Shown in pieces: positions 36,051 through 52,389 of a stretch of 64,000 nt of DNA. Each line of letters starts with the position of its first letter. The first letter of the stretch is position 1. A program made the position numbers and the translations under genes. The DNA lies in NCBI RefSeq assembly GCF_001644645.1, contig NZ_CP011390.1, forward strand, positions 3,158,001-3,222,000. The letters run 5' to 3'. This DNA is from Flavisolibacter tropicus. GTDB lineage: Bacteria; Bacteroidota; Bacteroidia; Chitinophagales; Chitinophagaceae. The notes beneath the pieces are model-generated. The model saw nothing but the letters and a program-made list of their open reading frames with translations, made no database searches and was not told where the DNA came from.

Positions 36051-39000
36051 ATGAGCCCTATTAAAGCAGTTTTCGCTTCGTTACTTTCTATAATCTCCGT
36101 TACATTAATTGCACAACAACCAAGGTTGGTATTACCAATAGGACATACCAATAATGTGCAGTTTGAGTCCATCAGCCCAAATGGAAAATACGTCGTCACC
36201 GTTTCCTCAGATAAAACCGCCAAGCTCTGGGAAATAAATACCGGCAGGCTATTAAATACATTTACTGGTTTTACCGGCGTAGTGAACAGTGTTGAGTTTA
36301 GCCCCGATGGAACGAAGATCATCACGGGTGCCAAAGATGGAAAAGTAAGGATATGGGATGTATCTACCGGTGCCTTATTACAAGATCTGAAGGGACACAA
36401 ACAGGAGATCGCCTCAGTAAAATTCAGTCCGGATGGTCAGTATGCAGTATCCGCATCTATTGACCAGAGCGCAAAGATCTGGAATGTTGCAACCGGGGCG
36501 CTGATTCATTCCCTTGAAGGGCATCGATCTTTTGTATCAATGGCTTCTTTCAGCACTACCGGCGATTATGTGCTGACGGCTTCATGGGATTTTACGGCTA
36601 AAATATGGGATACTAAAACAGGACAGCTGGTACGCACATTGACTGATTCAACCAAGCTCGTTAATCTTCCGTTGAACTTCGCTTATTTTTCCCCAGGAGA
36701 CAAATATGTTATTACGGCTTCAAAAGATAATAGTTTGTCTATCTGGGATGCACAATCAGGAAAACGAATCAGGGAGCAACGAAAACATACCGATGAGATC
36801 CGTTCGGCATGTTTTATTAATAAAGGAAAGTATTTTGTCACTTCTTCTTATGATCATACTGCCAAAGTATGGGAAACAAGCACAGGCGATCTTGTATATG
36901 ACCTGGTGGGGCATAGCGACAAGGTATATATGTCTTCGCCAAGTGCAGATGGCAAGTACCTGGTAACGGCCTCAGCAGACGCTACAGCCAGTATCTGGGA
37001 TATGACAAACGGAAAGCTGGCGCGTACACTAGCAGGGCATCTTTCTGATGTTATGTCGGCCTTTTTCACACCTGACGGTAAAAAGGTCGTTACTTCATCC
37101 TGGGACAGAACAGCAAGAGTTTGGAATTTTTCTAATGGTAAAACAATTTCCGTTCTGAAAGGACATTCCTTTCATTCTACATCACTTTGCCTGGATGATA
37201 AAGGGCAAAAGCTCTATACAAATACGTATGATAATGGTGGCGAGTCAAGGGTATGGGACCTTTCTACCTTGAAACTGATCAAAGCGTTTGATTATTCAGT
37301 CTTCAAAAAATCGAATGTTTATTTCAGCTCGGATATTAACGCCGGTAATCTGAGCCATGATGGAAAACTGTTTGCAGCTTGTCCGGAGGTGCTGGAAACA
37401 GCATCGGGAAAATTAAAATTTAGGCTCCAGCTCAACGACTCAGCATCTTACTCGGAAGGTATTTTCAGTCATAGTGGTTCACTTATAGCGGCCAATACAT
37501 TCATCTATAAGGAGAAGGATCCTGTTATCGCTTGCCGGATATGGGATGCTGCTAACGGCAAATTATTGCATACGCTCAAAGGACACAGAGATATGTTAGG
37601 AAGGATTGGCTTTTCACCGGACGACAAGAAAATTGTGACCACTTCATGGGATGGAACGGCAAAGGTTTGGGAAACAGCCACGGGTAAATTATTATTTACA
37701 CTTTCAGGTCATACAAATAAAGTTATGAACGTCGTCTACAGTCCGGATGGTAAGTATATCGCCACGGGTTCAGATGATAAAAATGTAATGTTATGGTCGG
37801 CCACCACGGGTAAATTACTGCATACACTAATCGGTCATCCATGGGTGATAACAGAGCTGCATTTTAGTGCGGATAGTAAATATTTACTAAGCACCTGTGG
37901 CGGCCGTGGTTCGAATGCTATTTTATGGGAGGCCGAAACAGGCAGACTTATTTACAAGATAGGAGATGAACAGAACTCTGTTTCTAATGCCGCTTTCAGT
38001 ACAAAGGGTGAATATGTTCTTATTTCGCATCATAACAGCCTTGCAGAGATCTATGAAACAACAACCGGTAAATTAGTACACCAATTAAAGGGACATACCG
38101 ACGAAATATATAGCACGACAGCTGATAAGGATGATAAGTTTGTGTATACCGTTTCCAGGGATGATCAATTGAAGTGCTGGGACCTAAAGTCAGGTGGTCT
38201 CCTTTATACTTTTTTTGCAGCTGACAGTATGGACTATTTTGTCCAGACCCCTTCTGGCTATTACCAGTCTTCCCAAAATGCGGCAAAATTACTTCACTAT
38301 GTTACGAATGATTTAAAGGTGCTCAGTTTTGAACAACTCGATGTTAAATATAATCGCCCCGATAAAGTACTGGAGACAATTGGCAATTCCGATTCTACCC
38401 TTATCAAAAGCTATAGAAAGGCATGGGAGAAAAGGATAAAGAGACTTGGAATTGACACCACTGCTTTTAGGGAAGGTTTCAGTGTTCCGGAATGTGATTT
38501 TGTAAACAGGGATGATATAGCGTTTGAACAAAAAAATGAAAAACTAGTACTGCATATTAAAGCATCCGATAATGATTTCAACCTTGATCGTTTCAATGTA
38601 TGGATCAATGAGGTGCCGGTATTTGGCCAGCGTGGCATTGACCTGAAACAAAAACAATCTCACTCTTTAGACACGTTGCTGACGGTTGTTCTTTCCGAAG
38701 GCAACAATAACATAGAGACCTCAATAACCAATGTAAACGGAATAGAAAGCTATCGCCTACCGATAGCAGTAGCCTATATGCCTGCAACCCCGCAGGCAGA
38801 AAAGCTGCATTTCATCGGTATTGGCCTGGACCATTTCAACGAGCCAAAACACGACCTTAATTATTCGGTTAAAGATGTAAGAGACTTAGCCATCAGTCTT
38901 AAGAAAAAGTATGGTGCTGCAATCCAAATGGATACGCTATTTAATGAAGCAGTAACTACTACAAGTATAGCAGCACTGAAAACCAAATTGTTGAGCAGCG

Positions 39001-39596
39001 CTGTAAACGACAAGGTCATTGTGGCTTACTCCGGTCACGGCTTGCTATCAAAGGACTTTGATTATCACCTGTCTACTTATGACGTAAACTTTTCCAGACC
39101 AGAAGAAGGTGGTCTTCCGTATGATGAACTGGAAGCACTGCTGGATGGTATACCGGCACGTAAAAAGCTTATGCTTATTGATGCCTGTCACTCAGGGGAA
39201 GTCGATAAAGAAGAATTTCAAAAGATTGCCCAGGCCAATGAAGCGGCCGCTACGAGCAAGGGAGCAAGAGGCACCACACCCTTAGTGTTGAATTCCAGGA
39301 AAGATGGCATGAAGAACTCCTTTGAATTGATGCAGCAGCTCTTTGTTAATGTAGGTCGTTCTACCGGAGCTACGGTAATTTCAGCAGCTGGTGGCACCCA
39401 GTTTGCCTTGGAGCGTGGGGACTTAAAAAACGGCGTGTTTACCTATTCGATTTTAGAGTATATGCAAGCACATCCAACGGCAAGCGTGAGTGAGTTAAAA
39501 GCGTATGTGAACCAACGGGTACCTCAGCTCACCAAAGGTGCACAACAGCCTACTACCCGCAATGAAACCAAACAGGCAGATTGGCAGGTGTGGTAG
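36051..39596 (+). CDS. Secreted WD40-repeat protein with C-terminal caspase domain
   Basis: 1,181 residues. An N-terminal signal sequence (AVFASLLSIISVTLIAQ) is followed by about 14 WD40 repeats (repeating GH.....V.FSPDGKY..T.S.D.TAKIWD) over residues 30-720, forming probably two beta-propellers. After a linker of about 170 residues comes a peptidase C14 (caspase/metacaspase-like) domain from about residue 905, with the catalytic His in VAYSGHG (about 996) and Cys in LIDACHSG (about 1046). Both catalytic residues are intact. Substrate and trigger are unknown; the WD40 part probably binds a protein or ligand. The signal peptide indicates action outside the cytoplasm. It lies directly upstream of the Rhs island on the same strand, with no terminator seen between. 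Confidence 0.88.
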   Translation: MSPIKAVFASLLSIISVTLIAQQPRLVLPIGHTNNVQFESISPNGKYVVTVSSDKTAKLWEINTGRLLNTFTGFTGVVNSVEFSPDGTKIITGAKDGKVRIWDVSTGALLQDLKGHKQEIASVKFSPDGQYAVSASIDQSAKIWNVATGALIHSLEGHRSFVSMASFSTTGDYVLTASWDFTAKIWDTKTGQLVRTLTDSTKLVNLPLNFAYFSPGDKYVITASKDNSLSIWDAQSGKRIREQRKHTDEIRSACFINKGKYFVTSSYDHTAKVWETSTGDLVYDLVGHSDKVYMSSPSADGKYLVTASADATASIWDMTNGKLARTLAGHLSDVMSAFFTPDGKKVVTSSWDRTARVWNFSNGKTISVLKGHSFHSTSLCLDDKGQKLYTNTYDNGGESRVWDLSTLKLIKAFDYSVFKKSNVYFSSDINAGNLSHDGKLFAACPEVLETASGKLKFRLQLNDSASYSEGIFSHSGSLIAANTFIYKEKDPVIACRIWDAANGKLLHTLKGHRDMLGRIGFSPDDKKIVTTSWDGTAKVWETATGKLLFTLSGHTNKVMNVVYSPDGKYIATGSDDKNVMLWSATTGKLLHTLIGHPWVITELHFSADSKYLLSTCGGRGSNAILWEAETGRLIYKIGDEQNSVSNAAFSTKGEYVLISHHNSLAEIYETTTGKLVHQLKGHTDEIYSTTADKDDKFVYTVSRDDQLKCWDLKSGGLLYTFFAADSMDYFVQTPSGYYQSSQNAAKLLHYVTNDLKVLSFEQLDVKYNRPDKVLETIGNSDSTLIKSYRKAWEKRIKRLGIDTTAFREGFSVPECDFVNRDDIAFEQKNEKLVLHIKASDNDFNLDRFNVWINEVPVFGQRGIDLKQKQSHSLDTLLTVVLSEGNNNIETSITNVNGIESYRLPIAVAYMPATPQAEKLHFIGIGLDHFNEPKHDLNYSVKDVRDLAISLKKKYGAAIQMDTLFNEAVTTTSIAALKTKLLSSAVNDKVIVAYSGHGLLSKDFDYHLSTYDVNFSRPEEGGLPYDELEALLDGIPARKKLMLIDACHSGEVDKEEFQKIAQANEAAATSKGARGTTPLVLNSRKDGMKNSFELMQQLFVNVGRSTGATVISAAGGTQFALERGDLKNGVFTYSILEYMQAHPTASVSELKAYVNQRVPQLTKGAQQPTTRNETKQADWQVW

Positions 39597-39614
39597 GGCG
39601 TTAGGCTCCCTTTC

Positions 39615-39746
39615 CCCCCAGCCGTGGTTCGTGTCCCCACGAACCACACTTGTAACTACACGTCGGTGCTATACTGTTATATAACTATCAATTCAGGTAA
39701 CCAACCATACAACAGGCGCCATATAGTTTCGTGGAGACACGAACCT
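39615..39746 (+). repeat. Palindromic insertion element copy 2, longer form
   Basis: The first 80 bp (39615-39694) match 29896-29975. A further 50 bp follow, ending in a second hairpin TTCGTG/CACGAA (39728-39743) that is an inverted relative of the first one. The two hairpins in opposite orientation bracket a 125-bp unit, as in a BIME or MITE. It sits at the 5' breakpoint of the Rhs-A gene. Confidence 0.75.
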
Positions 39747-41582
39747 AGGCGATTGGAGGATTACAAACCCATTGGTGGGACAGGTGCGTCTGCCTTTGGT
39801 ATAAATTACGGAAGCCAAGGCAGTGATGTCGCCGGGAAGCCGTTGTATAACGGAAATATTTCAACTACCACACTGGCGTTAAGTAAGTTCCGGGGCGGTG
39901 ATCCGGTGGGCTACAGCTATGGTTACGACCAGTTAAACCGGTTAAAAGAGATGCGCCAACACAACTTAACTGCGGCGACAACTACCTGGGGTAGTGCCTC
40001 CGCTGGGGAGCCCTATAAAGAAAGCTATAGCTATGATGCTAATGGCAATATACTTAGCCTTTTGCGCAATGGTACAACCCAGGCCGGTAAACCCCTGCAA
40101 ATGGACCAACTGACATACAACTACCTGCCCAATACCAATAAACTCGCTTATGTCGCAGATGCCATTGGGGATAATAATTACACAGAAGATATCGATAACC
40201 AGGCGGTTGGCAATTACCGCTATGATAAGATTGGTAATTTGATTGGCGATGTCAAGGAAGGTCTTACGGACATCCAGTGGTCGGTGTATGGCAAGATTCG
40301 TAGTATCACCAAAGCTGGTGGCTCTACCATTTCTTACAGCTATGATGCAGCGGGTAACCGCATTGCTAAGTCAGTGACTACTGGCGGGGTTACTACCACT
40401 ACTTATTACATCCGCGATGCCCAAGGTAATACGCTGGCCGTGTACGAGGGCACAGCCAAAAAAGAGCAGTACCTCTATGGTTCTTCCCGACTAGGGGTGT
40501 ATGATCCCGCCCTTGACCAGCGCAGCTACGAGCTGACCAACCACCTGGGTAACGTGCTGGCTGTGGTCAGCGAACACAAGGTGACGACCGCCTCCGGCAA
40601 CGAGGCCGATGTGCTCAGTCAGCAGGACTACTATCCCTTCGGGATGGAGATGCCAGAAGGGAAATGGGGCAACAGCTACCGCTATGGCTTTAATGGCAAA
40701 GAAAAGGATGGAGAAACGGACACCCAGGATTACGGCATGCGGATTTATAATCCAGCACTAGGCCGCTTCTTGAGCGTGGATCCAATAACAAAGAATTATC
40801 CTATGTTAACGCCTTATCAATTCGCATCAAATAGCCCAATTTCAGGTGTGGATTTAGATGGCTTAGAATATTATTATGCAGCAGATGGAAATTTTATTGC
40901 AAAGTCCAGAGACAATAATACACAAGTACGGGTAATTCAGTCCAAAGATGTGGCGACAGCCTGGCAATTGCTTCGAAGAAAAGAAGGTGCAACTGTAGTG
41001 GACTTAAATAAGATCAGTATAGATGTTGGTATAAGTAATGCAGAACTAAATACGAGAGCATTCTTGAGTACATTAAAGCAAACTGAAAATCATGGAAATG
41101 ATCCATTACCTTATAATGCAATGCATGGCTTTATTAAAGGTAAATTAAAAACGTTTACCGATAAGAGCTATGAAGAGGCGCCCGAAGAATATAAAAATCA
41201 TCCTTATGAAGGAAAAAAAGGTGGTACCGCCGCAGGTGCATATCAATTGCTACGGCCTACATTCAATGCGCAAAAGAAATCTAATCCATTAGTTAAAGAT
41301 TTCGGACCCAATGGCCAAGATTATGCAGTTCTTGGAATATTAAATACGCCTGGAATCGATGCTTTGGAACCAATTAAAGCTGGAGATTTAAACACTGCTA
41401 TAAAGCGTTTAATTAAAGACAAATGGGGAAACACTCAATTCGCTTCACTGCCAGGAGGAGGACAGGAAGCATCGGATATGACAATGGATAAGTTAAAAGA
41501 ATTGTTTAAGAAAAATGTTTCAAACGAGCTAAATGGAAAGTCTAATATATCATTGCCAAAAGGCGAAACATTACCTAAATAA
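39624..41582 (+). CDS. 5'-truncated Rhs protein A with GH104 lysozyme-like toxin tip
   Basis: 652 codons, but the first 43 are translated repeat element; true Rhs sequence begins near 39755. It carries YD/Rhs repeats (SYDANGNILSLLRNG, RYDKIGNLIGDV, SYDAAGNRIAKS) and the Rhs-associated core, from YELTNHLGNVLAVVSEHK through QQDYYPFGM to LGRFLSVDP and SGVDLDGLE (about residue 415). The variable tip resembles phage lambda endolysin R (GH104): RAFLSTLKQTENHGND with likely catalytic Glu488, TAAGAYQLLRPTF, KDFGPNGQDYAVL and the ending DKWGNTQFASLPGGG. Predicted to cleave peptidoglycan. The N-terminal half of a normal Rhs protein (signal, secretion region) is missing. A lipoprotein gene follows 10 bp downstream. 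It may be unexpressed. Confidence 0.8.
   Translation: MVRVPTNHTCNYTSVLYCYITINSGNQPYNRRHIVSWRHEPRRLEDYKPIGGTGASAFGINYGSQGSDVAGKPLYNGNISTTTLALSKFRGGDPVGYSYGYDQLNRLKEMRQHNLTAATTTWGSASAGEPYKESYSYDANGNILSLLRNGTTQAGKPLQMDQLTYNYLPNTNKLAYVADAIGDNNYTEDIDNQAVGNYRYDKIGNLIGDVKEGLTDIQWSVYGKIRSITKAGGSTISYSYDAAGNRIAKSVTTGGVTTTTYYIRDAQGNTLAVYEGTAKKEQYLYGSSRLGVYDPALDQRSYELTNHLGNVLAVVSEHKVTTASGNEADVLSQQDYYPFGMEMPEGKWGNSYRYGFNGKEKDGETDTQDYGMRIYNPALGRFLSVDPITKNYPMLTPYQFASNSPISGVDLDGLEYYYAADGNFIAKSRDNNTQVRVIQSKDVATAWQLLRRKEGATVVDLNKISIDVGISNAELNTRAFLSTLKQTENHGNDPLPYNAMHGFIKGKLKTFTDKSYEEAPEEYKNHPYEGKKGGTAAGAYQLLRPTFNAQKKSNPLVKDFGPNGQDYAVLGILNTPGIDALEPIKAGDLNTAIKRLIKDKWGNTQFASLPGGGQEASDMTMDKLKELFKKNVSNELNGKSNISLPKGETLPK
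39755..40647 (+). repeat. Outer inverted repeat, left arm (Rhs core)
   Basis: About 893 bp repeated in opposite orientation at 49757-50649, same length. The encoded ~297 residues appear identical; a patch of synonymous differences is visible around 40481-40500, so the arms are not fully homogenised. Left boundary GGAGGATTAC, right boundary at GGGATGG just after the DYYPFGM codons. Confidence 0.88.
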
Positions 41583-41592
41583 TTAAAATAAA

Positions 41593-42207
41593 ATGAATAA
41601 AGGCATCTGTTCAATATTAATTTTAGTGGCTATTTTGGGGGAAGCGTGTAAAAACCAAACTATAGGTGGGGACAACAAATATAAAAAGTCAAAAGTTGAT
41701 TCGTCAATTATTGTGCAAAGTTCAGATGATGAGAATTATAGTGATTCGATAGCTATTTACTTTACCTCAATCGCCTCTGATTCATCATATTCATTATCAA
41801 TTAAAACATATTCAGAGAGTAAGAAGCTTAAACAATATCCCTGTGTGATTAAACAAGAGTTGGTTTTCAAAGTTCAAGATAGTGTCATAAGTAAAAAGCT
41901 AGTGCCACTTAGTAATGTTCTAGTAGAAAATGATAAAAGAAGGTTTTTAAAATATGTAATAAATGGAGTAGCTATAGATAGCATAAATGAACAAAAGATT
42001 TATATGCTTTACCTATATGCAGCAAATGGAGAGGCTGAGAACTATTATTATTATGACATGAAAGGCAAACTATTATTCTCTCAAAACTGTAATAAGACTG
42101 GGTGTAAAGTTGAAGCATTTAATTTTGATAAGAAAGCTGCCATAGATTACACAAATCATTCAAATGATTTAAAAATTAAAAATATTGAGGGAATTTGCAT
42201 TTATTGA
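41593..42207 (+). CDS. Lipoprotein, candidate immunity to tip A
   Basis: 204 residues, AT-rich. Lipoprotein signal with lipobox ILGEAC (Cys about residue 19). The mature part is mainly beta, with many Ser, Tyr and Lys; no known family recognised. It starts 10 bp after the Rhs-A stop, the usual position of immunity genes in polymorphic toxin loci. An envelope-anchored inhibitor fits a toxin that attacks peptidoglycan. Function is inferred from position and localisation only. Confidence 0.7.
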   Translation: MNKGICSILILVAILGEACKNQTIGGDNKYKKSKVDSSIIVQSSDDENYSDSIAIYFTSIASDSSYSLSIKTYSESKKLKQYPCVIKQELVFKVQDSVISKKLVPLSNVLVENDKRRFLKYVINGVAIDSINEQKIYMLYLYAANGEAENYYYYDMKGKLLFSQNCNKTGCKVEAFNFDKKAAIDYTNHSNDLKIKNIEGICIY

Positions 42208-42311
42208 TTTTAAAGTCTTGTGTTCTAAAACTTCACTAAACATAAAATTCATTTTATTGTTTTAATTTCTAAGATGAACCAACTCCTTCCCACTTTTATA
42301 TTTATTACCTA

Positions 42312-43610
42312 ATGTTTTTGGCCCAATGTTGCCTGATTAAAAGCAACATTGGGCCAAAAAGAGCAGTACCTCTATGGCTCCTCCAGGTTGAGGTGTATGA
42401 TCCCTCGCTAGACCAGCGCAGCTACGAGTTGACCAACCACCTGGACAACGTGCTGGCTGTGGTGAGTGGACATAAGGTGGCAACCGCCTCCGGCAACGAA
42501 GTGAATATACTTAGTCAACAGGATTACTATCCCTTCGGGATGGGCCTACCCGAACGGAAATGGGGCAACAGTTACCGCTATGGCTTTAATGGCAAAGAAA
42601 ACGATAAAGAATCAGGCACACAGGATTATGGGCTAAGGATTTATAATCCGGCACTAGGCAGGTTCCTAAGCGTCGATCCCTTGACGAAATCATATCCCAT
42701 GTTAACACCATACCAGTTTGCCAGCAATAGCCCAATAGACGGGATTGATTTGGATGGTTTGGAATATCTTTCTTTTCATAAATCAATGTACCGAATGGAG
42801 TATCAAGTTATGCGACAGGATATTAAAATGGGTGACGGTACAAAGCAAACAGTAACGACTTCAAGTACAGTCGTGAACACTGTATATTCAAACATCCCTG
42901 CAGCCTTACAGGACTCAAAAGCCGCTAGCTTTAAATTTGTTGGAGGGGGGCCTGTAACTACAATGGGAAGAGATTATGATCCAAATGTTGATGGTGCATG
43001 GCAAGTTGATTGGTCAAAGTATTATGCCAATGGTCCGTCATTTTATGGTGCAGCAGAAGGGGGTAAGTCAACAAATGGGATTCAGAGTTTAAAAGGAAAT
43101 GCTTCGATGCAGCGACAAGTACTTGCGCAAAATATTAATGGTGTTGGCGGTGCTTTTGGCGCAAATGGCGCTGGCGGTATGATAGTTAATCGAAGAAGTG
43201 TAGCAACATGGAAAGCGCTTACTCTAGAAGGTGATCTGCGCAATGGGTTTTATAATGCAACGCAAATGGTAGATTACTACATGAATAATAACATGATTGG
43301 CAATTCTGGGAAAGATTTATCAGGAGGTGCAGATAGAGCTATGTTGATAAACTTCCTTAGTGATGGTTATTTGCCAACAGCTGAAACTGATAAATTTAAA
43401 GGACCAGAATTTACTAGTTTTAGAAGGAACGCTTATGAAAAGCAATTAACTGTTGCGTGGCATGGCTTGGAAATTATGCAAGCTCAAAACATAACAATAA
43501 GAGAAGAAACAAAATCTTCAATTAGGTCAATTGTTGGAAAATATCTGCAAGACGGAGGTAACACCACTCCTACAAATGCTATAAATGAAAAATTGGACGG
43601 AATTAAATAG
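42312..43610 (+). CDS. 5'-truncated Rhs fragment with toxin tip B (left copy)
   Basis: 432 codons. The first 30 are out of the Rhs frame (a one-base shift near 42355-42390), so the real Rhs part begins at YDPSLDQRSYELTNHL. The Rhs core end (QQDYYPFGMGLPERK, RFLSVDP, GIDLDGLE) is followed by a tip of about 280 residues with no recognised family. It is rich in Asn, Gly and Met, with GGAFGANGAGGMIVNRRSVATWKAL and a helical C-terminus (EKQLTVAWHGLEIMQAQNI). It has no promoter or N-terminal domains of its own and is probably a silent cassette. An identical copy lies inverted at 46700-47881. Confidence 0.7.
   Translation: MFLAQCCLIKSNIGPKRAVPLWLLQVEVYDPSLDQRSYELTNHLDNVLAVVSGHKVATASGNEVNILSQQDYYPFGMGLPERKWGNSYRYGFNGKENDKESGTQDYGLRIYNPALGRFLSVDPLTKSYPMLTPYQFASNSPIDGIDLDGLEYLSFHKSMYRMEYQVMRQDIKMGDGTKQTVTTSSTVVNTVYSNIPAALQDSKAASFKFVGGGPVTTMGRDYDPNVDGAWQVDWSKYYANGPSFYGAAEGGKSTNGIQSLKGNASMQRQVLAQNINGVGGAFGANGAGGMIVNRRSVATWKALTLEGDLRNGFYNATQMVDYYMNNNMIGNSGKDLSGGADRAMLINFLSDGYLPTAETDKFKGPEFTSFRRNAYEKQLTVAWHGLEIMQAQNITIREETKSSIRSIVGKYLQDGGNTTPTNAINEKLDGIK
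42315..42360. repeat. 18-bp perfect hairpin at an Rhs junction
   Basis: Arms 42315-42332 (TTTTTGGCCCAATGTTGC) and 42343-42360, loop of 10 bases. The right arm runs straight into Rhs codons (CCAAAAAGAGCAGTACCTC, equivalent to KKEQYLYG), so the hairpin marks a rearrangement junction; it could also act as a terminator. Confidence 0.7.
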
Positions 43611-44320
43611 TTTAACAATGAGACAATTATTTATTTTTTTTAGTTTGTTTGTTTTATGGATTGGTTGCTCCTCAACTAATCACGATGACAGAATTGGGCT
43701 TATATATAGGTCAGTCAGTATGATGAAAACGCTTGATACTACAGGTCTTAAAGCTATTGTTGATACCTCTTACTATTATGAAATCTACGGTTCTGAAGGA
43801 TTTAATAATATAGTACAGTTTACAAGTAAAAAGATTAATGCTTGTGGTATTCCAGCAAAAAATAAACTTAGCTCAACTGAAAACACTCAATTGCATTATA
43901 CTGAATTTATTATGCCATTTTGCCGCGACCATGTAGATAGTTTAACAAATGAGAGCTTTGATTTAGTTTTTCGTTTTTTCGACTATGAGAGTAGCGAAAA
44001 AATTGGTTTTATCAATATTAATAAGTCACCATCCCAGCTAAACAAACCAAAACCAACTAGATCATTACCCCAATAACTATTTCTACATGCAATTAACTTT
44101 CCCATCAAGTTTTCCTTTATTCTAACAGGTATATAGCCTTGATATGTGGGTACGAAAGACCTAAAAGCTTGGATTGATGCAATAGAGCAATGAGTTGCCT
44201 TGCAGGTATGAACTGTTAACAATTATGCAACGTACCGGCCGTGGTCAGTGAGCACAAGGTGACTACCACATCCGGCAGTGAAGCCGGCGTGCTCAGCCAA
44301 CAGGACTACTCTCCCTTCGG
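42408..44320 (+). repeat. Inner inverted repeat, left arm (tip B, immunity B and Rhs end)
   Basis: 1,913 bp matching 45990-47902 in opposite orientation; both arms have exactly the same length and no difference was found in the segments compared. Outer limit at CTAGACCAGCG, inner limit at CTCCCTTCGG inside the DYSPFG codons. The arm contains Rhs tip B, its partner gene, a 150-bp spacer and a second Rhs core fragment (VVSEHKVTTTSGSEAGVLSQQDYSPFG). Confidence 0.92.
43618..44076 (+). CDS. Lipoprotein, candidate immunity to tip B (left copy)
   Basis: 152 residues from the ATG at 43618 (MRQLFIFFSLFVLWIGC, lipobox Cys at 17); an earlier in-frame ATG overlaps the toxin gene. Mature part alpha/beta, no known family. 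Starts 8 bp after the tip B stop. Identical to the inverted copy at 46234-46692. Confidence 0.7.
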   Translation: MRQLFIFFSLFVLWIGCSSTNHDDRIGLIYRSVSMMKTLDTTGLKAIVDTSYYYEIYGSEGFNNIVQFTSKKINACGIPAKNKLSSTENTQLHYTEFIMPFCRDHVDSLTNESFDLVFRFFDYESSEKIGFININKSPSQLNKPKPTRSLPQ

Positions 44321-44325
44321 AATAA

Positions 44326-44430
44326 AAGCCCGAAGGAATAGTAGTCTTGGGCACTTGTCACATTGGCTTTATAACAATCCACATCTCCATCGTTATCTAT
44401 ATCTACATCCACTCTCTTATCTTACTGGGA
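44326..44430 (-). pseudogene. Remnant of a different Rhs core
   Basis: On the minus strand this reads DVDIDNDGDVDCYKANVTSAQDYYSFGL, the Rhs core stretch just before and including DYYPFG, but of another sequence lineage than cores A to D. It meets the left inner arm head to head at the TTCGG of both DY.PFG motifs (44303-44346 forms an imperfect palindrome). Confidence 0.6.
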
Positions 44431-44470
44431 CCAGTAGTTTTGTATGGATTTGTAAATGGTTAAAGCTGCG

Positions 44471-45028
44471 TCAATTCTTTCTTTCGATTAGTAACAGTAG
44501 TGAAGAGTTCTCAAGTAATAGTCCCATCTTCTTTTGCTTTTTTATAATGCATAGCTTGTAAGTGTAAAAATTAGGACGGTTGCTTTTCAACTCATAAAAG
44601 CTTAGAGATGCTTCCTTGTTGCCAAGTAATTTCATGAAAGACCTTCCAACAAAACATTTGTTCTGATCTACACGAGCCGGCTCACAGCTTAATTCATCGC
44701 CTGGATAACGCAGAGATATTTCGTTGTCCTCAGTTTTTTTGAATGTTTTACATTCCCCAATAAAAACTGTATCAGCATAGCTTTCCGACTTTTTAAGAGC
44801 CTTGGAGAAGAAAAGCATCTTACCCTGTATGTAGATAGCATTTCCGATGAAAAGTTTTTCCTGAGCTTTAAAATCTATATCGACAGGATTTGCAACACCC
44901 AATTGAAGATTGGTATTGACGACTTTTGTTATTACCCATTTTTGTTTTCCTTGTGAGAGAACTACAAAAGGTATAAGCAAAACCAATATCAACAATCTTA
45001 AAGCTTTAATAAATATTCTTTGCCTCAT
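44471..45028 (-). CDS. Exported protein, candidate immunity to tip C
   Basis: 185 residues with an N-terminal signal peptide (ALRLLILVLLIPFVVLSQG, no lipobox Cys). The mature part is largely beta with two Cys pairs (IGECKTF, LSCEPA, NKCFVG). No known family. It starts 6 bp after the stop of the GH24-tipped Rhs gene on the same strand. Periplasmic location suits protection against a muramidase. Confidence 0.7.
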   Translation of the reverse strand: MRQRIFIKALRLLILVLLIPFVVLSQGKQKWVITKVVNTNLQLGVANPVDIDFKAQEKLFIGNAIYIQGKMLFFSKALKKSESYADTVFIGECKTFKKTEDNEISLRYPGDELSCEPARVDQNKCFVGRSFMKLLGNKEASLSFYELKSNRPNFYTYKLCIIKKQKKMGLLLENSSLLLLIERKN

Positions 45029-45034
45029 ATAATT

Positions 45035-46069
45035 TTATCTATTTTTTTCATCCGGTATTTTCCCTGCAGTGCCTTGGGACGAGATGGGGTCGGGACCTCC
45101 TGTTTGTCCATTTACCGCGTCCTTTGCAGTCTGCTTAGTGGTCTTGTTATTTATAACATCAAAGTGGATGTAAACTCCTTCTGAGTAGAGCAAATTTTCT
45201 GCATACCGGCGTTTTTTTATGCCTTCACCTCCTGCCATGTATTCCAGAAAAAAGTTCTCTCCGCTGTACTTGGTTCCGTCTTGTGTATAATGCGACATCT
45301 TTCCTGGGCCCATATTGAATGATGCGTCGTATAAAGCGTTCTTTTGATTTTCACTCAAAGTATACCCTTTTAATAAGTTGTCCGCTTTTTGAAAAATATC
45401 TTTTGAGTCTTTTCTAAACAAAGCTTCAGCATCTGCCGCAGAAATTTTTCCACCGACGGTATATGGCTCAACTTTCTTAATTAGGTGGCCGAAGCCTATC
45501 GTTGGATTGCCTAAGTGGTCGTTATAGCCAACATGATTGCCTTCCTTATCAGTATTCACTCCTTCATATGCTTTTTTAAACGAAACAATAGTTGGGTCAG
45601 GTATTTGATTTCCGTAGTAGTAGGTTGTTTTTCCACCATGATTTGACTGTATCAATACACCGTCACCAAGAGGCCCTGCTTCTGGCAGGCTAATTTTTGT
45701 CTTTGTTATTTTATCTTCAGTAAAGTCATAGATGTAAATCTGTTTCTCTTTGCCATCCAAATCAACACTTCTAATGACATCGTTTTCGGCATAGCAATAT
45801 GGGCTATTCCAAGCAAATGATTTAAACAGCGGGTCAACACTCAGGAACCTTCCTAACCTAGGATTATAAACCCTAAAGCCATAATCGTATTGATTTCCAA
45901 CACCGCTTACTTCCTGATCCTGCTCTTTTCCGTTGAAGCCGTAGCGGTATTGATTTGTAGTTGTATAAGTTCTGCTTGGCAGGCCCATCCCGAAGGGAGA
46001 GTAGTCCTGTTGGCTGAGCACGCCGGCTTCACTGCCGGATGTGGTAGTCACCTTGTGCTCACTGACCAC
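45035..46069 (-). CDS. 5'-truncated Rhs fragment with GH24 lysozyme tip (tip C)
   Basis: 344 codons from a start inside the Rhs core (VSEHKVTTTSGSEAG). Core end: QQDYSPFGM, RFLSVDPLFKSF, SVDLDGKE (to about residue 107). The tip is a T4-lysozyme-like GH24 domain (about 160-290), with the catalytic triad positions visible: Glu169 (AYEG), Asp184 (GYNDHLG) and Thr190 (PTIGFGH). KRRYAENLLY follows. It should hydrolyse peptidoglycan glycan strands. A tail of about 45 residues rich in Lys, Thr and Gly follows. The gene is joined at its 5' end to the inner inverted repeat, so there is no complete Rhs carrier. Confidence 0.8.
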   Translation of the reverse strand: MVSEHKVTTTSGSEAGVLSQQDYSPFGMGLPSRTYTTTNQYRYGFNGKEQDQEVSGVGNQYDYGFRVYNPRLGRFLSVDPLFKSFAWNSPYCYAENDVIRSVDLDGKEKQIYIYDFTEDKITKTKISLPEAGPLGDGVLIQSNHGGKTTYYYGNQIPDPTIVSFKKAYEGVNTDKEGNHVGYNDHLGNPTIGFGHLIKKVEPYTVGGKISAADAEALFRKDSKDIFQKADNLLKGYTLSENQKNALYDASFNMGPGKMSHYTQDGTKYSGENFFLEYMAGGEGIKKRRYAENLLYSEGVYIHFDVINNKTTKQTAKDAVNGQTGGPDPISSQGTAGKIPDEKNR

Positions 46070-46233
46070 GGCCGGTACGTTGCATAATTGTTAACAGTTC
46101 ATACCTGCAAGGCAACTCATTGCTCTATTGCATCAATCCAAGCTTTTAGGTCTTTCGTACCCACATATCAAGGCTATATACCTGTTAGAATAAAGGAAAA
46201 CTTGATGGGAAAGTTAATTGCATGTAGAAATAG

Positions 46234-46692
46234 TTATTGGGGTAATGATCTAGTTGGTTTTGGTTTGTTTAGCTGGGATGGTGACTTATTAATATTGATA
46301 AAACCAATTTTTTCGCTACTCTCATAGTCGAAAAAACGAAAAACTAAATCAAAGCTCTCATTTGTTAAACTATCTACATGGTCGCGGCAAAATGGCATAA
46401 TAAATTCAGTATAATGCAATTGAGTGTTTTCAGTTGAGCTAAGTTTATTTTTTGCTGGAATACCACAAGCATTAATCTTTTTACTTGTAAACTGTACTAT
46501 ATTATTAAATCCTTCAGAACCGTAGATTTCATAATAGTAAGAGGTATCAACAATAGCTTTAAGACCTGTAGTATCAAGCGTTTTCATCATACTGACTGAC
46601 CTATATATAAGCCCAATTCTGTCATCGTGATTAGTTGAGGAGCAACCAATCCATAAAACAAACAAACTAAAAAAAATAAATAATTGTCTCAT
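46234..46692 (-). CDS. Lipoprotein, candidate immunity to tip B (right copy)
   Basis: Identical 152-residue protein to the one encoded at 43618-44076, inside the right arm of the inner inverted repeat. Lipobox Cys at residue 17 (LFVLWIGC). Starts 8 bp after the stop of the right tip B copy. Confidence 0.7.
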   Translation of the reverse strand: MRQLFIFFSLFVLWIGCSSTNHDDRIGLIYRSVSMMKTLDTTGLKAIVDTSYYYEIYGSEGFNNIVQFTSKKINACGIPAKNKLSSTENTQLHYTEFIMPFCRDHVDSLTNESFDLVFRFFDYESSEKIGFININKSPSQLNKPKPTRSLPQ

Positions 46693-46699
46693 TGTTAAA

Positions 46700-47881
46700 C
46701 TATTTAATTCCGTCCAATTTTTCATTTATAGCATTTGTAGGAGTGGTGTTACCTCCGTCTTGCAGATATTTTCCAACAATTGACCTAATTGAAGATTTTG
46801 TTTCTTCTCTTATTGTTATGTTTTGAGCTTGCATAATTTCCAAGCCATGCCACGCAACAGTTAATTGCTTTTCATAAGCGTTCCTTCTAAAACTAGTAAA
46901 TTCTGGTCCTTTAAATTTATCAGTTTCAGCTGTTGGCAAATAACCATCACTAAGGAAGTTTATCAACATAGCTCTATCTGCACCTCCTGATAAATCTTTC
47001 CCAGAATTGCCAATCATGTTATTATTCATGTAGTAATCTACCATTTGCGTTGCATTATAAAACCCATTGCGCAGATCACCTTCTAGAGTAAGCGCTTTCC
47101 ATGTTGCTACACTTCTTCGATTAACTATCATACCGCCAGCGCCATTTGCGCCAAAAGCACCGCCAACACCATTAATATTTTGCGCAAGTACTTGTCGCTG
47201 CATCGAAGCATTTCCTTTTAAACTCTGAATCCCATTTGTTGACTTACCCCCTTCTGCTGCACCATAAAATGACGGACCATTGGCATAATACTTTGACCAA
47301 TCAACTTGCCATGCACCATCAACATTTGGATCATAATCTCTTCCCATTGTAGTTACAGGCCCCCCTCCAACAAATTTAAAGCTAGCGGCTTTTGAGTCCT
47401 GTAAGGCTGCAGGGATGTTTGAATATACAGTGTTCACGACTGTACTTGAAGTCGTTACTGTTTGCTTTGTACCGTCACCCATTTTAATATCCTGTCGCAT
47501 AACTTGATACTCCATTCGGTACATTGATTTATGAAAAGAAAGATATTCCAAACCATCCAAATCAATCCCGTCTATTGGGCTATTGCTGGCAAACTGGTAT
47601 GGTGTTAACATGGGATATGATTTCGTCAAGGGATCGACGCTTAGGAACCTGCCTAGTGCCGGATTATAAATCCTTAGCCCATAATCCTGTGTGCCTGATT
47701 CTTTATCGTTTTCTTTGCCATTAAAGCCATAGCGGTAACTGTTGCCCCATTTCCGTTCGGGTAGGCCCATCCCGAAGGGATAGTAATCCTGTTGACTAAG
47801 TATATTCACTTCGTTGCCGGAGGCGGTTGCCACCTTATGTCCACTCACCACAGCCAGCACGTTGTCCAGGTGGTTGGTCAA
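46700..47881 (-). CDS. 5'-truncated Rhs fragment with toxin tip B (right copy)
   Basis: 393 codons, identical in protein sequence to the left tip B copy from LTNHLDNVLAVVSGHK onwards. The start at 47881 is a TTG inside the core and is arbitrary; the Rhs frame stays open further upstream (to about 47945, EQHIYYSSRLGGYDPALDQ), then Rhs homology ends. No promoter or secretion signal. Tip family unknown. Confidence 0.7.
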   Translation of the reverse strand: MTNHLDNVLAVVSGHKVATASGNEVNILSQQDYYPFGMGLPERKWGNSYRYGFNGKENDKESGTQDYGLRIYNPALGRFLSVDPLTKSYPMLTPYQFASNSPIDGIDLDGLEYLSFHKSMYRMEYQVMRQDIKMGDGTKQTVTTSSTVVNTVYSNIPAALQDSKAASFKFVGGGPVTTMGRDYDPNVDGAWQVDWSKYYANGPSFYGAAEGGKSTNGIQSLKGNASMQRQVLAQNINGVGGAFGANGAGGMIVNRRSVATWKALTLEGDLRNGFYNATQMVDYYMNNNMIGNSGKDLSGGADRAMLINFLSDGYLPTAETDKFKGPEFTSFRRNAYEKQLTVAWHGLEIMQAQNITIREETKSSIRSIVGKYLQDGGNTTPTNAINEKLDGIK

Positions 47882-48023
47882 CTCGTAGCTGCGCTGGTCT
47901 AGGGCAGGGTCATAGCCCCCCAGGCGGGAGGAGTAATAGATATGCTGCTCGAACGCTTGTGGACATAAACCCCGACTAGCGACTGTTTTTATTCTTGGAA
48001 TTTCGGAAAAATTGGCTTTACAG

Positions 48024-48659
48024 TCATTCAGGTAATTCCTTTGCTGTTATGCGTGGATGCTTGTAATTAACAAACCCCTTCTTTAAAGAGTCAAGCCAGA
48101 TATGATATAATTCATTCTGAGAAAGGCCCTTATCAATTTCACTGTTCCTTCCACTCTGATGCTTAAAAATAGAGCTATCTGCATTTAGCAGATATAAGTA
48201 AAGTGCATAATCATAATTGTCAGAAGCTGGCACTTCATAAGATTTACAAATGATAGTGTCATTCAAAGAAATATATAGTATATCCTTGTATTCTTCAGTG
48301 TGAGTAGTATAAACCCTATTACGCCCAGGCTTACCGCCATGAAAATTATTAGTCGAATAAACATAGATAGGATTATCGTAGCCTACGCTAAAGCTATCTT
48401 CTAAAGTTAATGTTACTGTTCTCTCAGGTTTATAGTATTTAATGTAAACAGGAAACTCGTTACTATATTTTACTTCAACAGATTGATTTTTATCTATTCT
48501 CTTTAAACTGTCAATACCCTTCAACTTAAATAGGTTGAAGTTATTAAAATAAACAGGTTTCTCTTTTTTATCTGTCATCTTAATGCTATTACACTGGGAA
48601 AAGATCAAACACCAAAATACAATGGATAAATTGAACCTTATTAAGGGAGCCTTCCACAT
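48024..48659 (-). CDS. Lipoprotein, candidate immunity to tip D
   Basis: 211 residues, AT-rich. N-terminal lipoprotein-like signal (IVFWCLIFSQC, Cys about residue 23). The mature part is mostly beta with many Tyr, Asn and Lys, no known family. Starts 12 bp after the Rhs-D stop codon. Immunity role inferred from position. Confidence 0.7.
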   Translation of the reverse strand: MWKAPLIRFNLSIVFWCLIFSQCNSIKMTDKKEKPVYFNNFNLFKLKGIDSLKRIDKNQSVEVKYSNEFPVYIKYYKPERTVTLTLEDSFSVGYDNPIYVYSTNNFHGGKPGRNRVYTTHTEEYKDILYISLNDTIICKSYEVPASDNYDYALYLYLLNADSSIFKHQSGRNSEIDKGLSQNELYHIWLDSLKKGFVNYKHPRITAKELPE

Positions 48660-48671
48660 AAATTAATTATT

Positions 48672-50699
48672 TTAATCATTCACTGTAGATATATTGCCTG
48701 CTGTTTTCTTTTCAGTGCTAAATTGAACACCGCCCATGCTCGTGGTAGTTCCGTCCGGTGTTACTTTTAGGTACTTACCTTGATTTGCGCCATTCCCATC
48801 CGATTGACTCATCATCCAATTTAGGATACCTCCATAAAATCTACCATTCTTCAAGTTACTAGAATAACTGTAAGATTTATGACCATAAACTGTGGTATTC
48901 ATATCCTTACTTATTAACTGCAAAACCTGTGTACACTTATTTGCGTTGCAATGTCCCATTAAGGTTTGACTTCCTTCGGATCTGAACTTACCTAATAGCT
49001 GGAATAAATGTGATGTTTTTTCATTGTAATTAGTAGGAACACCGTTAGCATCTACTTGAAGCTGATTTTCACCAAACTCAAGTTTATGGGGCTGACCGTC
49101 AGTCCTCTTTTCAAAATGCTGGGTACCATGAAAGTCTATAATAGCATCCTTAAATGAAACATTATTTTCAATAGCATAAGTAATACCTTTGAAAACCATT
49201 TCTTCTAAGTTTCCAGCACCTATCGCTGCAAAGTTCTCGCTCTTTGCATCCAGCCCATTAAAGAATTCTGCATCATATGAGTATGCTGACATTGCTTCAA
49301 TTGTTTCATGTTCCTCATCTTTATTTACCAACTTTTCATTAGGAATAAAAGCTACATTAATTATTGCTTTTTTGTTAACCTCATAAATGGAAGATGTTGA
49401 TGCTCCAGTTCTAAGATCATAGGTATGTTTATAAATCTGACCAGCACCTAAAGGTTTTAATTCAGGTGCAAAACGGAAAGTTGTAGGCTTATTACTGCCA
49501 TTTACAAATATTGCAACCCACTCTTCCAAGCCGTCTAGATCAATTGCCATTATAGGTTTATTGCCTGCAAATTGATAAGGGGTATAGAATGGATAATTTT
49601 TTGTCAAAGGGTCAATACTCAAGAACTTTCCTAGCCGGGGATCATAGACTCTGAACCCATAATCATATTGTGCTCCTGAGCCCTTTACTTCAGGATCATG
49701 CTCTTTGCCGTTAAAGCCATAGCGGTAACTGTTTCCCCATTTCCGATCGGGTAGGCCCATCCCGAAGGGATAGTAGTCTTGCTGGCTGAGCACATCGGCT
49801 TCATTGCCGGAGGCGGTGGTCACCTTGTGTTCGCTCACCACTGCCAGCACGTTGCCCAGGTGGTTGGTCAGCTCGTAGCTACGCTGGTCAAGGGCGGGAT
49901 CATACACACCCAGCCGCGAAGAGCCATAAAGGTATTGCTCTTTTTTGGCTGTGCCCTCGTACACGGCCAGCGTATTACCTTGGGCATCGCGGATGTAATA
50001 AGTAGTGGTAGTAACCCCGCCAGTAGTCACTGACTTAGCAATGCGGTTACCCGCTGCATCATAGCTGTAAGAAATGGTAGAGCCACCAGCTTTGGTGATA
50101 CTACGAATCTTGCCATACACCGACCACTGGATGTCCGTAAGACCTTCCTTGACATCGCCAATCAAATTACCAATCTTATCATAGCGGTAATTGCCAACCG
50201 CCTGGTTATCGATATCTTCTGTGTAATTATTATCCCCAATGGCATCTGCGACATAAGCAAGTTTATTGGTATTGGGCAGGTAGTTGTATGTCAGTTGGTC
50301 CATTTGCAGGGGTTTACCGGCCTGGGTTGTACCATTGCGCAAAAGGCTAAGTATATTGCCATTAGCATCATAGCTATAGCTTTCTTTATAGGGCTCCCCA
50401 GCGGAGGCACTACCCCAGGTAGTTGTCGCCGCAGTTAAGTTGTGTTGGCGCATCTCTTTTAACCGGTTTAACTGGTCGTAACCATAGCTGTAGCCCACCG
50501 GATCACCGCCCCGGAACTTACTCAACGCCAGTGTGGTAGTTGAAATATTTCCGTTATACAACGGCTTCCCGGCGACATCACTGCCTTGGCTTCCGTAATT
50601 TATACCAAAGGCAGACGCACCTGTCCCACCAATGGGTTTGTAATCCTCCGCGTAATAACCCAGAGAGAATGCCAGCACATCTCGCGCATTATCGCGCAT
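48672..50699 (-). CDS. 5'-truncated Rhs protein D with unknown toxin tip
   Basis: 675 codons from the ATG at 50699. The frame is open further upstream through KKDGWSNTAND to the edge of a REP palindrome (50729), so the rest of the gene was lost there. The Rhs core (about residues 17-315) is identical to Rhs-A. The core end has an alternative form (EVKGSGAQYDYGFRVYDPRLGKFLSIDPL). The tip, about 285 residues, is not recognised. IIDFHGTQHF and TLMGHCNANKC could be the His and Cys of a clan CD (caspase/clostripain-like) peptidase, but this rests on two short motifs. Followed by a lipoprotein gene. Confidence 0.75.
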   Translation of the reverse strand: MRDNARDVLAFSLGYYAEDYKPIGGTGASAFGINYGSQGSDVAGKPLYNGNISTTTLALSKFRGGDPVGYSYGYDQLNRLKEMRQHNLTAATTTWGSASAGEPYKESYSYDANGNILSLLRNGTTQAGKPLQMDQLTYNYLPNTNKLAYVADAIGDNNYTEDIDNQAVGNYRYDKIGNLIGDVKEGLTDIQWSVYGKIRSITKAGGSTISYSYDAAGNRIAKSVTTGGVTTTTYYIRDAQGNTLAVYEGTAKKEQYLYGSSRLGVYDPALDQRSYELTNHLGNVLAVVSEHKVTTASGNEADVLSQQDYYPFGMGLPDRKWGNSYRYGFNGKEHDPEVKGSGAQYDYGFRVYDPRLGKFLSIDPLTKNYPFYTPYQFAGNKPIMAIDLDGLEEWVAIFVNGSNKPTTFRFAPELKPLGAGQIYKHTYDLRTGASTSSIYEVNKKAIINVAFIPNEKLVNKDEEHETIEAMSAYSYDAEFFNGLDAKSENFAAIGAGNLEEMVFKGITYAIENNVSFKDAIIDFHGTQHFEKRTDGQPHKLEFGENQLQVDANGVPTNYNEKTSHLFQLLGKFRSEGSQTLMGHCNANKCTQVLQLISKDMNTTVYGHKSYSYSSNLKNGRFYGGILNWMMSQSDGNGANQGKYLKVTPDGTTTSMGGVQFSTEKKTAGNISTVND
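49757..50649 (-). repeat. Outer inverted repeat, right arm (Rhs core)
   Basis: Reverse complement of 39755-40647, 893 bp. Together with the left arm it encloses about 9.1 kb containing all four tip types. Confidence 0.88.
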
Positions 50700-50728
50700 A
50701 TCGTTTGCCGTATTGCTCCAACCATCTT

Positions 50729-50784
50729 TTTTACGCCGTTGTTGGTGTTCCTCCTAGCCCTTGCGCCGCGGCTGCACCAACAAC
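50729..50784 (+). repeat. REP-type palindrome copy 7 at the Rhs-D breakpoint
   Basis: TTTACGCC, arms GTTGTTGGTG (50738-50747) and CACCAACAAC (50775-50784). Almost identical to 34247-34302 and in the same orientation. The Rhs-D reading frame ends exactly at its edge. Confidence 0.85.
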
Positions 50785-50904: not shown

Positions 50905-52389
50905 TTAATTTTTCCGGCTCACAAAATTCATGACTAGTCTAACACCAAAACTGCCCCAATCTTTATACGGCTTTTTGATAACAATTTTAGGTGTATAGGT
51001 AGATCCCTGTGAAGAATAAAATTGTAATATGTCGCCTGGTGCATCTTTGCTGAGATTATTATGAAATTCGTAAGTAACACCGAGACCCATGCTACCCAAT
51101 TTGAATAAGACACCAGGCGTTACGTTCAGGAATATATTACCCATAGATGATTCAGTGTAGTCTTTTCCAGCTAAGAAAAGCGAGAGACCGGCATCTGTAA
51201 ACAAAAGCATTCGGTCATTAAACAATCCCACTGTAGGGCCAAGACCGGCACTCATCATAACACCCTTTCTGTTTGCGGTTTCTGTTTTCAGCTCCACTTC
51301 GTTATTATTTTGGTAACTAACCTCATAGGTTGGCGAGTTCATAACATAAGCTACTTCAAAAAGCCAGTGAAAATATTTAGAGGATCGATTACTGAACTGC
51401 AAAGCGATCTTTTGAAATTGTTTGTCATTCACGTTATCTGTTTTGTAATCCAGCCCTGTGTAGCCAAATTGAAACATCGTGTATTTGTCAAACGCTTGGC
51501 CGATAGCTTTCAACTGTTGGTAGCGTTCAATGTCTGCTTTCATGGCTGCAGATTCGGGCAAAAGACCCGTAGAATTACCGCATCCGCCCATATATAAATT
51601 GTATTCATTGATTGCTTTCTTCCAATCGGCCTCTTCTCCGCTTTCTTTAGCCGCAGCAATCAATTTCTCCACTTTGGCCATGGCACTGAAGCAATACATT
51701 GTCGGATCATATGATTGATTGCTCTCCTTCTTGTTTGAATTGCTTCCGGTTTGATAAGGCGCTGCCAGCTCACGCATGCTGCCATTTGTATATTCCCCAA
51801 CGTACAATGGTGACAACTTTTCAATTCGTGAATAGGTCTGCTTGTATTTGTCGTCCACATACTCATTGAAATCAACCTGGAAAACAGAATACCCTTTTTT
51901 ACGATACTGATCAATGATCGCCTGGCGTACATTCACTAAAAACGTTGTTGATGATCGTACAGTCTGATACAATTCTGGTCCCGTGCCTTTTGCACCAACG
52001 CCATCAAAAAAGGCCCACTCTGACTTCACTGAAGACTTTGTAGTTATTTGATTGGCGTAAATAGAACTTGCTGCATTGAATTCATTTCTTTGTATTTGTT
52101 CGGTTTTGTTGCCGAATGCATTCGATAACATCGTTCTGTATTCTGAACTCGGACTGTTGGCATACTGTTTATAGGGTTCGCTGGCGTCGAGCCTGTAGAT
52201 ATAACTGCTAACGAGAAGGATCCTCAATTCACTGCTATTAGGCAATCCGAATTCTTGATAAAAGAAAACAACGTTGCGTTCATCCGGCCTGTTCTCCTGA
52301 CCAAAACTTTTTTGTGTTCCGAAAAAGGTCATAAATAGAACAGCGAGGGTCATCAATTTTGCTAGCCGTTTGGTTCTATGTTTCATCAT
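50905..52389 (-). CDS. Secreted protein with C-terminal beta-barrel-like region, unknown function
   Basis: 494 residues with a signal peptide (LAKLMTLAVLFMTFFGTQKSFGQ). The N-terminal two thirds are helical and hydrophilic, with no family recognised (NVVFFYQEFGLPNSSELRIL at the start, YMGGCGNSTGLLPES in the middle). The last 180 residues look like outer-membrane strands (KYFHWLFEVAYVM, GVMMSAGLGPTVGLF, MLLFTDAGLSLFLAG, SMGLGVTYEFHN) and end in FGVRLVMNFVSRKN. It adjoins the Rhs island but is separated from it by a REP copy; no functional link is visible. Confidence 0.75.
   Translation of the reverse strand: MMKHRTKRLAKLMTLAVLFMTFFGTQKSFGQENRPDERNVVFFYQEFGLPNSSELRILLVSSYIYRLDASEPYKQYANSPSSEYRTMLSNAFGNKTEQIQRNEFNAASSIYANQITTKSSVKSEWAFFDGVGAKGTGPELYQTVRSSTTFLVNVRQAIIDQYRKKGYSVFQVDFNEYVDDKYKQTYSRIEKLSPLYVGEYTNGSMRELAAPYQTGSNSNKKESNQSYDPTMYCFSAMAKVEKLIAAAKESGEEADWKKAINEYNLYMGGCGNSTGLLPESAAMKADIERYQQLKAIGQAFDKYTMFQFGYTGLDYKTDNVNDKQFQKIALQFSNRSSKYFHWLFEVAYVMNSPTYEVSYQNNNEVELKTETANRKGVMMSAGLGPTVGLFNDRMLLFTDAGLSLFLAGKDYTESSMGNIFLNVTPGVLFKLGSMGLGVTYEFHNNLSKDAPGDILQFYSSQGSTYTPKIVIKKPYKDWGSFGVRLVMNFVSRKN

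Follow-up and report, generated by a model that had tools for sequence, protein, structure and literature searches.

In the genome of Flavisolibacter tropicus (Bacteroidota, Chitinophagaceae), an island of Rhs toxin modules occupies positions 39,615-50,784 of the 64,000-nucleotide stretch analyzed here (RefSeq assembly GCF_001644645.1, contig NZ_CP011390.1, positions 3,158,001 to 3,222,000 of the forward strand), which is referred to as the window and numbered from its first letter. The island is, on balance, best read as the remnant of a convergent array of Rhs tips whose main gene no longer possesses its delivery part, while relatives appear to possess an enzyme that switches such tips. In Bacteroidota, a tyrosine recombinase probably inverts cassettes of tip and immunity gene between short sites located in a conserved portion of the Rhs core, YYPFG(M/L), and the island would be a fossil or a recombinase-free offshoot of this switch.

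According to the proposed mechanism, the recombinase of the relatives would invert the segment between two sites and swap a tip together with its immunity gene losslessly, in the manner of a shufflon. The array of the island would descend from, or parallel, such a recombinase locus; it would have lost both the recombinase and the body of the main gene and would now remain as a reservoir of tips and immunity genes. General homologous recombination between its long arms may still occur, without yielding a deliverable toxin.

Two convergent arrays with truncated cores

The inverted repeats of the island are nested, as the preliminary description of this DNA had held. The inner repeat (42396-44323 and 45987-47914) differs only at four positions within 42401-42407 and at 44321, leaving 1,913 bp (42408-44320) exactly identical, and the outer repeat (39755-40709 and 49695-50649), for which 893 bp had been claimed, was measured at 955 bp with 97% likeness. 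A chance origin of the repeats was ruled out by the nesting of the arms and the identity over 1,913 bp. Read inward, the left side consists of a core, tip A and its partner gene, a module B of core, tip and partner, and the stub of a module C; the right side consists of a core, tip D and its partner, again a module B, and a module C with core, tip and partner, i.e., the island is composed of two convergent arrays with module B common to both. At the palindrome center (44302-44346, no strand), two YPFG-coding sites face each other with 8 bp between them, and the exact identity of the left inner arm breaks off at the YPFG site, the one at which the relatives seem to recombine.

The 31 mismatches of the outer arms are unevenly distributed, with only two within the 714 bp of the truncated core body (39755-40468 on the plus strand, compared with 49936-50649) and 29 within the tip-side 241 bp, with which the left core end (40469-40871, plus strand) begins, and synonymous changes account for 23 of the 28 altered codons. 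This pattern is read as the footprint of an earlier tip exchange by homologous recombination, in which core ends of different origin, held under purifying selection, would have been fused to a core that was recently shared or converted. Long inverted repeats are also a known source of misassembly, but a fold-back or a collapsed repeat is very improbable in the present case, since the outer arms carry these uneven and mostly synonymous differences, the arm ends differ on each side, the 1.66-kb center has no second copy in the region compared, and the host genome of 5,940,863 bases is a single contig.

The island shows the hallmarks of Rhs loci, i.e., YD/RHS repeats and an Rhs-associated core ahead of a variable tip (PF05593, TIGR03696). 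Genome-wide, there are two matches to the RHS repeat and five to the Rhs core domain, every one of them inside the island. Both outer cores are 5'-truncated Rhs ends: core homology begins at 39755 on the left and near 50740 on the right, where the frame is open to 50753 with an ATG at 50699 (right outer arm and core start, 49936-50753, minus strand), and the 1,900-amino-acid Rhs body of a relative aligns to these cores only with its residues 1633-1886 and 1649-1886. Inspection by eye revealed no export signal at the start of either stub. Searches with the RHS repeat, the core domain and the relative's body found no full-length Rhs elsewhere in the genome, so that only truncated cores, and no body with an N-terminus for delivery, were detected genome-wide; a DUF6443 search was uninformative, as none of its controls matched. 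Because the cores are stubs and the genome holds no other Rhs body, the island is probably not a working switch.

An exchange between the outer arms would, as had been proposed, place tip D and its partner behind the left core and tip A and its partner behind the right core without any loss of DNA. The further claim that the island is built to exchange tips is borne out in part: relatives do combine opposed tips with a recombinase, but here the cores are truncated and both an Rhs body and the relatives' recombinase are absent. An inversion is possible but would attach the tips to stubs, and an exchange of deliverable toxins is now probably out of reach. A fully active switch, in which RecA-type recombination between the arms swaps functional toxins, would find good substrates in arms of 714 bp with two mismatches and of 1,913 bp with none; moreover, all tips and partners are open reading frames, and read-through transcription is conceivable, both cores lying downstream of co-oriented genes. 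Such activity is nevertheless quite improbable, with neither core retaining the N-terminal Rhs body and no further core or body in the genome to supply it.

Recombinase, strand geometry and short site in relatives

A tyrosine recombinase (PF00589, E 2.9e-9) adjoins the Rhs array of Flavisolibacter nicotianae. Relatives of this enzyme were found in 28 of 394 sampled genomes of the family at E ≤ 1e-35 and, across the phylum, in 5 of 395 sampled genomes at E ≤ 1e-30, of which four belong to other families. An Rhs core was detected in 24 of 30 short recombinase loci of the family; among the six others, three (L152, L153, L159) lie on contigs whose end coincides with the site or is no more than about 30 bp away from it, two (L164, L165) show a bare palindromic site, and one (L169) is truncated by the contig end. 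In a larger set of 34 loci, comprising all matches of the recombinase searches of the genus (close group), family and phylum, a core or a site lies at most 700 bp away in 28 cases, and in 33 it is located on one stretch with the recombinase; the remaining locus (G363) is truncated by the end of its contig. Among 11 less related integrase loci of the genus, no core was present within about 1.5 kb on each side.

The genome of the island lacks the relatives' recombinase (no match at E ≤ 1e-10). It encodes five tyrosine recombinases, the nearest of which lies about 94 kb from the island and outside the window; the window itself contains none, serine recombinases not having been searched for.

The basic layout of the relatives consists of a main Rhs gene with tip and partner, a facing orphan module with its own partner, and the recombinase (L173, L174, L175, L176, L180). 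Several facing orphans are present in G385 and F. nicotianae, and in G636 and G749 the recombinase sits between the facing tips. In all 12 stretches whose main frame measures 1,000 amino acids or more, the orphan taken as nearest the recombinase opposes the main gene, 10 of these pairs being convergent and two divergent (G415, G358b). Mixed strands occurred in 15 of 20 multi-module recombinase stretches (counted by eye, with the genus loci chosen after their strands had been seen and those without recombinase left out of the comparison) versus none of 22 multi-module loci without recombinase (Fisher 1.6e-7), a p-value that is indicative only, because the two sets represent different samplings with partly different flank lengths and related species. 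G339 was scored as not mixed despite a short core fragment on the opposite strand at its contig end. The control comprised 77 named loci fetched with the core of the window, none of which has the recombinase in its flanks at E ≤ 1e-20; the 22 of them that hold at least two modules all stem from other named genomes except for one F. nicotianae stretch. The F. nicotianae locus among the 77 (L102) was scored as not mixed, its inverted orphans lying beyond the 10-kb flank. A core search of the genus found five other genomes in which a single contig carries opposed modules (G006, G009, G010, G011, G012), four of which hold the recombinase, G011 being without it. An inverting layout is hence plausible and recurrent: the same genus and other Bacteroidota carry opposed, mostly convergent tips beside a recombinase.

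The F. nicotianae array, at 60-100 kb of its contig (L028/L029), starts with a full-length Rhs gene. Nine orphan modules follow, seven co-oriented and two facing; all but one of them begin at about CCCTTCGGGATG, and the tyrosine recombinase is located at the far end.

The site has the consensus ATTAYTATCCNTTYGG, which codes for YYPFG near the start of the Rhs-associated core. Main gene and opposed orphan were compared at the site pair that matched best, with one orphan per stretch, the one taken as nearest the recombinase; in all 12 stretches they shared an exact run of 12-300 bp that starts 0-12 bases before CCNTTYGG, and the 100 bp upstream of the shared run were 19-36% identical, i.e., near the random level. 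Across 46 orphans, the information content rose from 0.02-0.48 bit between positions -30 and -9 to 0.70-1.55 bits between -8 and -1; these statistics include only core matches with an in-frame CCNTTYGG near the 5' end (46 orphans, 12 main-gene rows), positions 0 to 7 having been selected for and those before 0 not, and several orphans per locus are not independent.

Two loci, L189 (10337-10354) and L190 (9152-9169), exhibit a bare palindromic site (TACTATCCC AAA GGGATAGTA) beside the recombinase gene, composed of two left half-sites head to head, and no Rhs orphan is present in the fetched 20 kb; they look as if an array had been lost or excised. The facing sites at the center of the island are comparable with these palindromes, and the cores of the island carry the site with small variations. 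Several contigs of relatives end on the site, one of them in a four-contig genome. This 1.23-Mb contig of G414 (L179) ends on the site beside the recombinase; an Rhs core search of the genome found nothing, and the array may be absent from the assembly. By eye, a GTTCTTTGA-like motif was noticed ahead of many orphan sites (L174-L192), at a distance of some tens of bases; it may represent a promoter or an accessory recombinase site.

The rather unlikely alternative is an ordinary orphan cluster without switch ancestry, which arose when Rhs ends and module B were duplicated in inverted orientation by homologous recombination. Salmonella offers a precedent, with orphan modules that share core homology and an orphan tip loaded by homologous recombination (PMC3967940; the papers cited here by such identifiers are represented by parts of their texts). 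The exact inner arms suggest a recent duplication or conversion, and both the relatives' recombinase and their upstream motif are absent from the island, whose orphans begin upstream of the site. The strand data argue in the other direction, since mixed strands were not encountered in the 22 multi-module control loci lacking the recombinase and four of the five other genus genomes with opposed modules hold the enzyme, and it is at the site that the exact left inner arm stops.

Several further observations weigh against the descent of the island from a recombinase-bearing array and against the switch itself. The window orphans B and C do not begin at the ATTAYTATCCNTTYGG site but upstream of it with extra core, unlike most orphans of the recombinase type, and the TTCTTTGA-type motif found upstream of many orphans in relatives is absent beside the modules of the window, where its sole occurrence lies inside the immD gene. 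At E ≤ 1e-3, the fetched loci yielded no homologue of tips A and D or of the partners of A, C and D. The reading frames of all tips and partners are intact, which is unlike long decay, and a short core does not by itself prove a loss of function: main frames in the relatives' recombinase loci measure 2,245-3,921 amino acids in 9 of 12 cases and 1,177-1,250 in three, and relatives also hold Rhs-core frames of about 600-1,250 amino acids, some of them at contig ends. Concerning the switch, 5 of the 20 multi-module recombinase stretches are not mixed in strand; contig ends on the site fit active rearrangement, but repeats could produce them as well. No inversion was observed in any genome, and an inverted middle across an array was seen in none of the 31 recombinase stretches compared, which were too diverged for alignments beyond 1.5 kb except in three pairs.

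The island has two facing arrays, the outer cores of both being truncated. Because its orphans start upstream of the site, the motif is missing and the recombinase is gone, it was left outside the recombinase-linked class and is regarded, with moderate confidence, as a remnant or an offshoot.

Tips and putative immunity genes

Four distinct tips, of which B occurs twice, are each adjoined by an exported-looking gene, in agreement with the preliminary description; the partners are putative immunity genes, and pair B is kept in F. nicotianae. By eye, immA, immB and immD possess an N-terminal hydrophobic stretch and a lipobox-like cysteine, and immC has no lipobox. Tips that cut cell walls together with exported partners would fit antibacterial toxin/immunity pairs working outside the cytoplasm.

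On the left, where all genes are on the plus strand, the core end (TIGR03696) contains a YPFGM-coding site near 40640 and leads into tip A (40872-41582), which resembles the lysozyme of phage lambda (PDB 1am7, 3d3d, E 2e-6) and is adjoined by the putative immunity lipoprotein gene immA (41593-42207) on the same strand. A terminator-like hairpin (42319-42354, by eye) located 3' of partner A directly abuts the start of the left module B core fragment (42356-42761), which was delimited by repeat alignment and within which the exact inner arm begins at 42408. The left copies of tip B (42762-43610) and of the putative immunity lipoprotein B (43618-44076) are homologous to a single orphan pair in the recombinase-bearing F. 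nicotianae array (E 1.9e-66 and 9.1e-21, respectively). A core fragment at 44223-44323, in which the exact inner arm extends as far as the YPFG site (44320), is all that is left of the lost left module C.

All genes of the right array are on the minus strand. Closest to the center is the putative immunity protein C (44471-45028), whose N-terminus resembles a signal peptide by eye, followed by tip C (45035-45760), a lysozyme of the phage T4 type (PF00959, E 2.8e-13), and the core fragment of module C (45761-46087, TIGR03696). Tip C is 58% identical over 214 amino acids to the tip of a 3,921-amino-acid full-length Rhs protein in G749, the genome of a member of another family. The right copies of the putative immunity lipoprotein B (46234-46692) and tip B (46700-47548) lie within the exact inner arm and are followed by the right module B core fragment (47549-47950, repeat alignment). 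The outermost pair consists of the putative immunity lipoprotein gene immD (48024-48659, by eye) and tip D (48672-49523), which joins the right core end with its YPFGM-coding site (49524-49935, TIGR03696). Pfam and PDB searches assigned neither tip B nor tip D to a family, tip D having no Pfam match and no relevant PDB match. An HG...GHC pattern in tip D recalls caspase-like peptidases, which we take as a lead only.

Known systems and flanking sequence

Orphan rhs-CT/rhsI and cdiA-CT/cdiI modules, which lie downstream of a main gene, likewise comprise a tip and an immunity gene together with part of the core, and recombination within the core loads the new tip (PMC3150448, PMC3967940). Such homologous exchange deletes the old immunity gene unless the locus has been duplicated beforehand (PMC3150448, PMC3967940), and how a polymorphic toxin can be changed without losing immunity to siblings is an acknowledged problem, for which prior duplication has been proposed (PMC3150448). 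Words starting with "inver" are absent from the available text of PMC3150448 and PMC3967940. In contrast to these orphans, the modules of the island are convergent, and the relatives add a recombinase and a fixed site. If the switch is real, opposed tips accompanied by such an enzyme would solve the problem of immunity loss directly and reversibly, and toxin identity would be a phase-variable trait in soil bacteria. For its part, the island serves as a caution that geometry may outlast lost machinery.

Tail-fiber cassettes of phages (Gin/Cin type) combine a constant 5' part with two convergent alternative 3' ends, each with a helper gene, and depend on a serine invertase and short crossover sites. 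The loci of the relatives differ from them by their tyrosine recombinase and their toxin/immunity pairs. Rhs tip inversion was not found in the literature searched, from which a large survey of programmed inversions was left out, and an earlier mention is possible. The tables of this survey of programmed gene-altering inversions, reportedly published in NAR in 2023, may include Rhs loci.

The shufflons of R64, R721 and ColIb-P9 also employ a tyrosine recombinase, and partial C-terminal segments join one constant N-terminal gene (PMC3414803), but those segments encode tips of the PilV adhesin, whereas the segments of the relatives encode Rhs toxin tips with immunity genes. A recombinase beside the invertible segments, as in a shufflon, was not found in the window, no tyrosine recombinase being located within about 94 kb in a search that did not extend to serine recombinases. 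The rAID arrays of gut Bacteroidales resemble the relatives' loci in their predicted tyrosine recombinase, their array of immunity genes in Bacteroidota and their conserved intergenic motifs; they consist, however, of co-oriented orphan immunity genes, and toxin-tip inversion is not part of the account as far as its available text goes (PMC12247911). The island, by comparison, contains toxin tips in convergent orientation and has no tyrosine recombinase in the window. Polymorphic toxin systems share the displacement of toxin and immunity cassettes at the 3' end, and XerC/D-type recombinases adjoin some polyimmunity loci (PMC3482391). The terms inverted, inversion, integrase and shuffl- do not occur in the first 300,000 of the 357,715 characters of that paper.

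On the right flank of the island, positions 50905-52389 encode an exported-looking protein of 494 amino acids with no Pfam family at the cut-off. A second genome with the locus of the island was not found, this neighboring gene being present in one of the 24 genomes searched, namely, its own, and having no match in the genome_contigs collection. On the left flank, a WD40-repeat protein (36051-39596), the C-terminal part of which appears caspase-like by eye, is encoded by a gene that reads into the island and ends 27 bases before the first listed start codon of the left core. The junction between this gene and the truncated core (39597-39754, plus strand) is unique sequence up to the beginning of the homology with the right core at 39755, and it contains two small hairpins at the point of truncation, possibly a repeated element (by eye).

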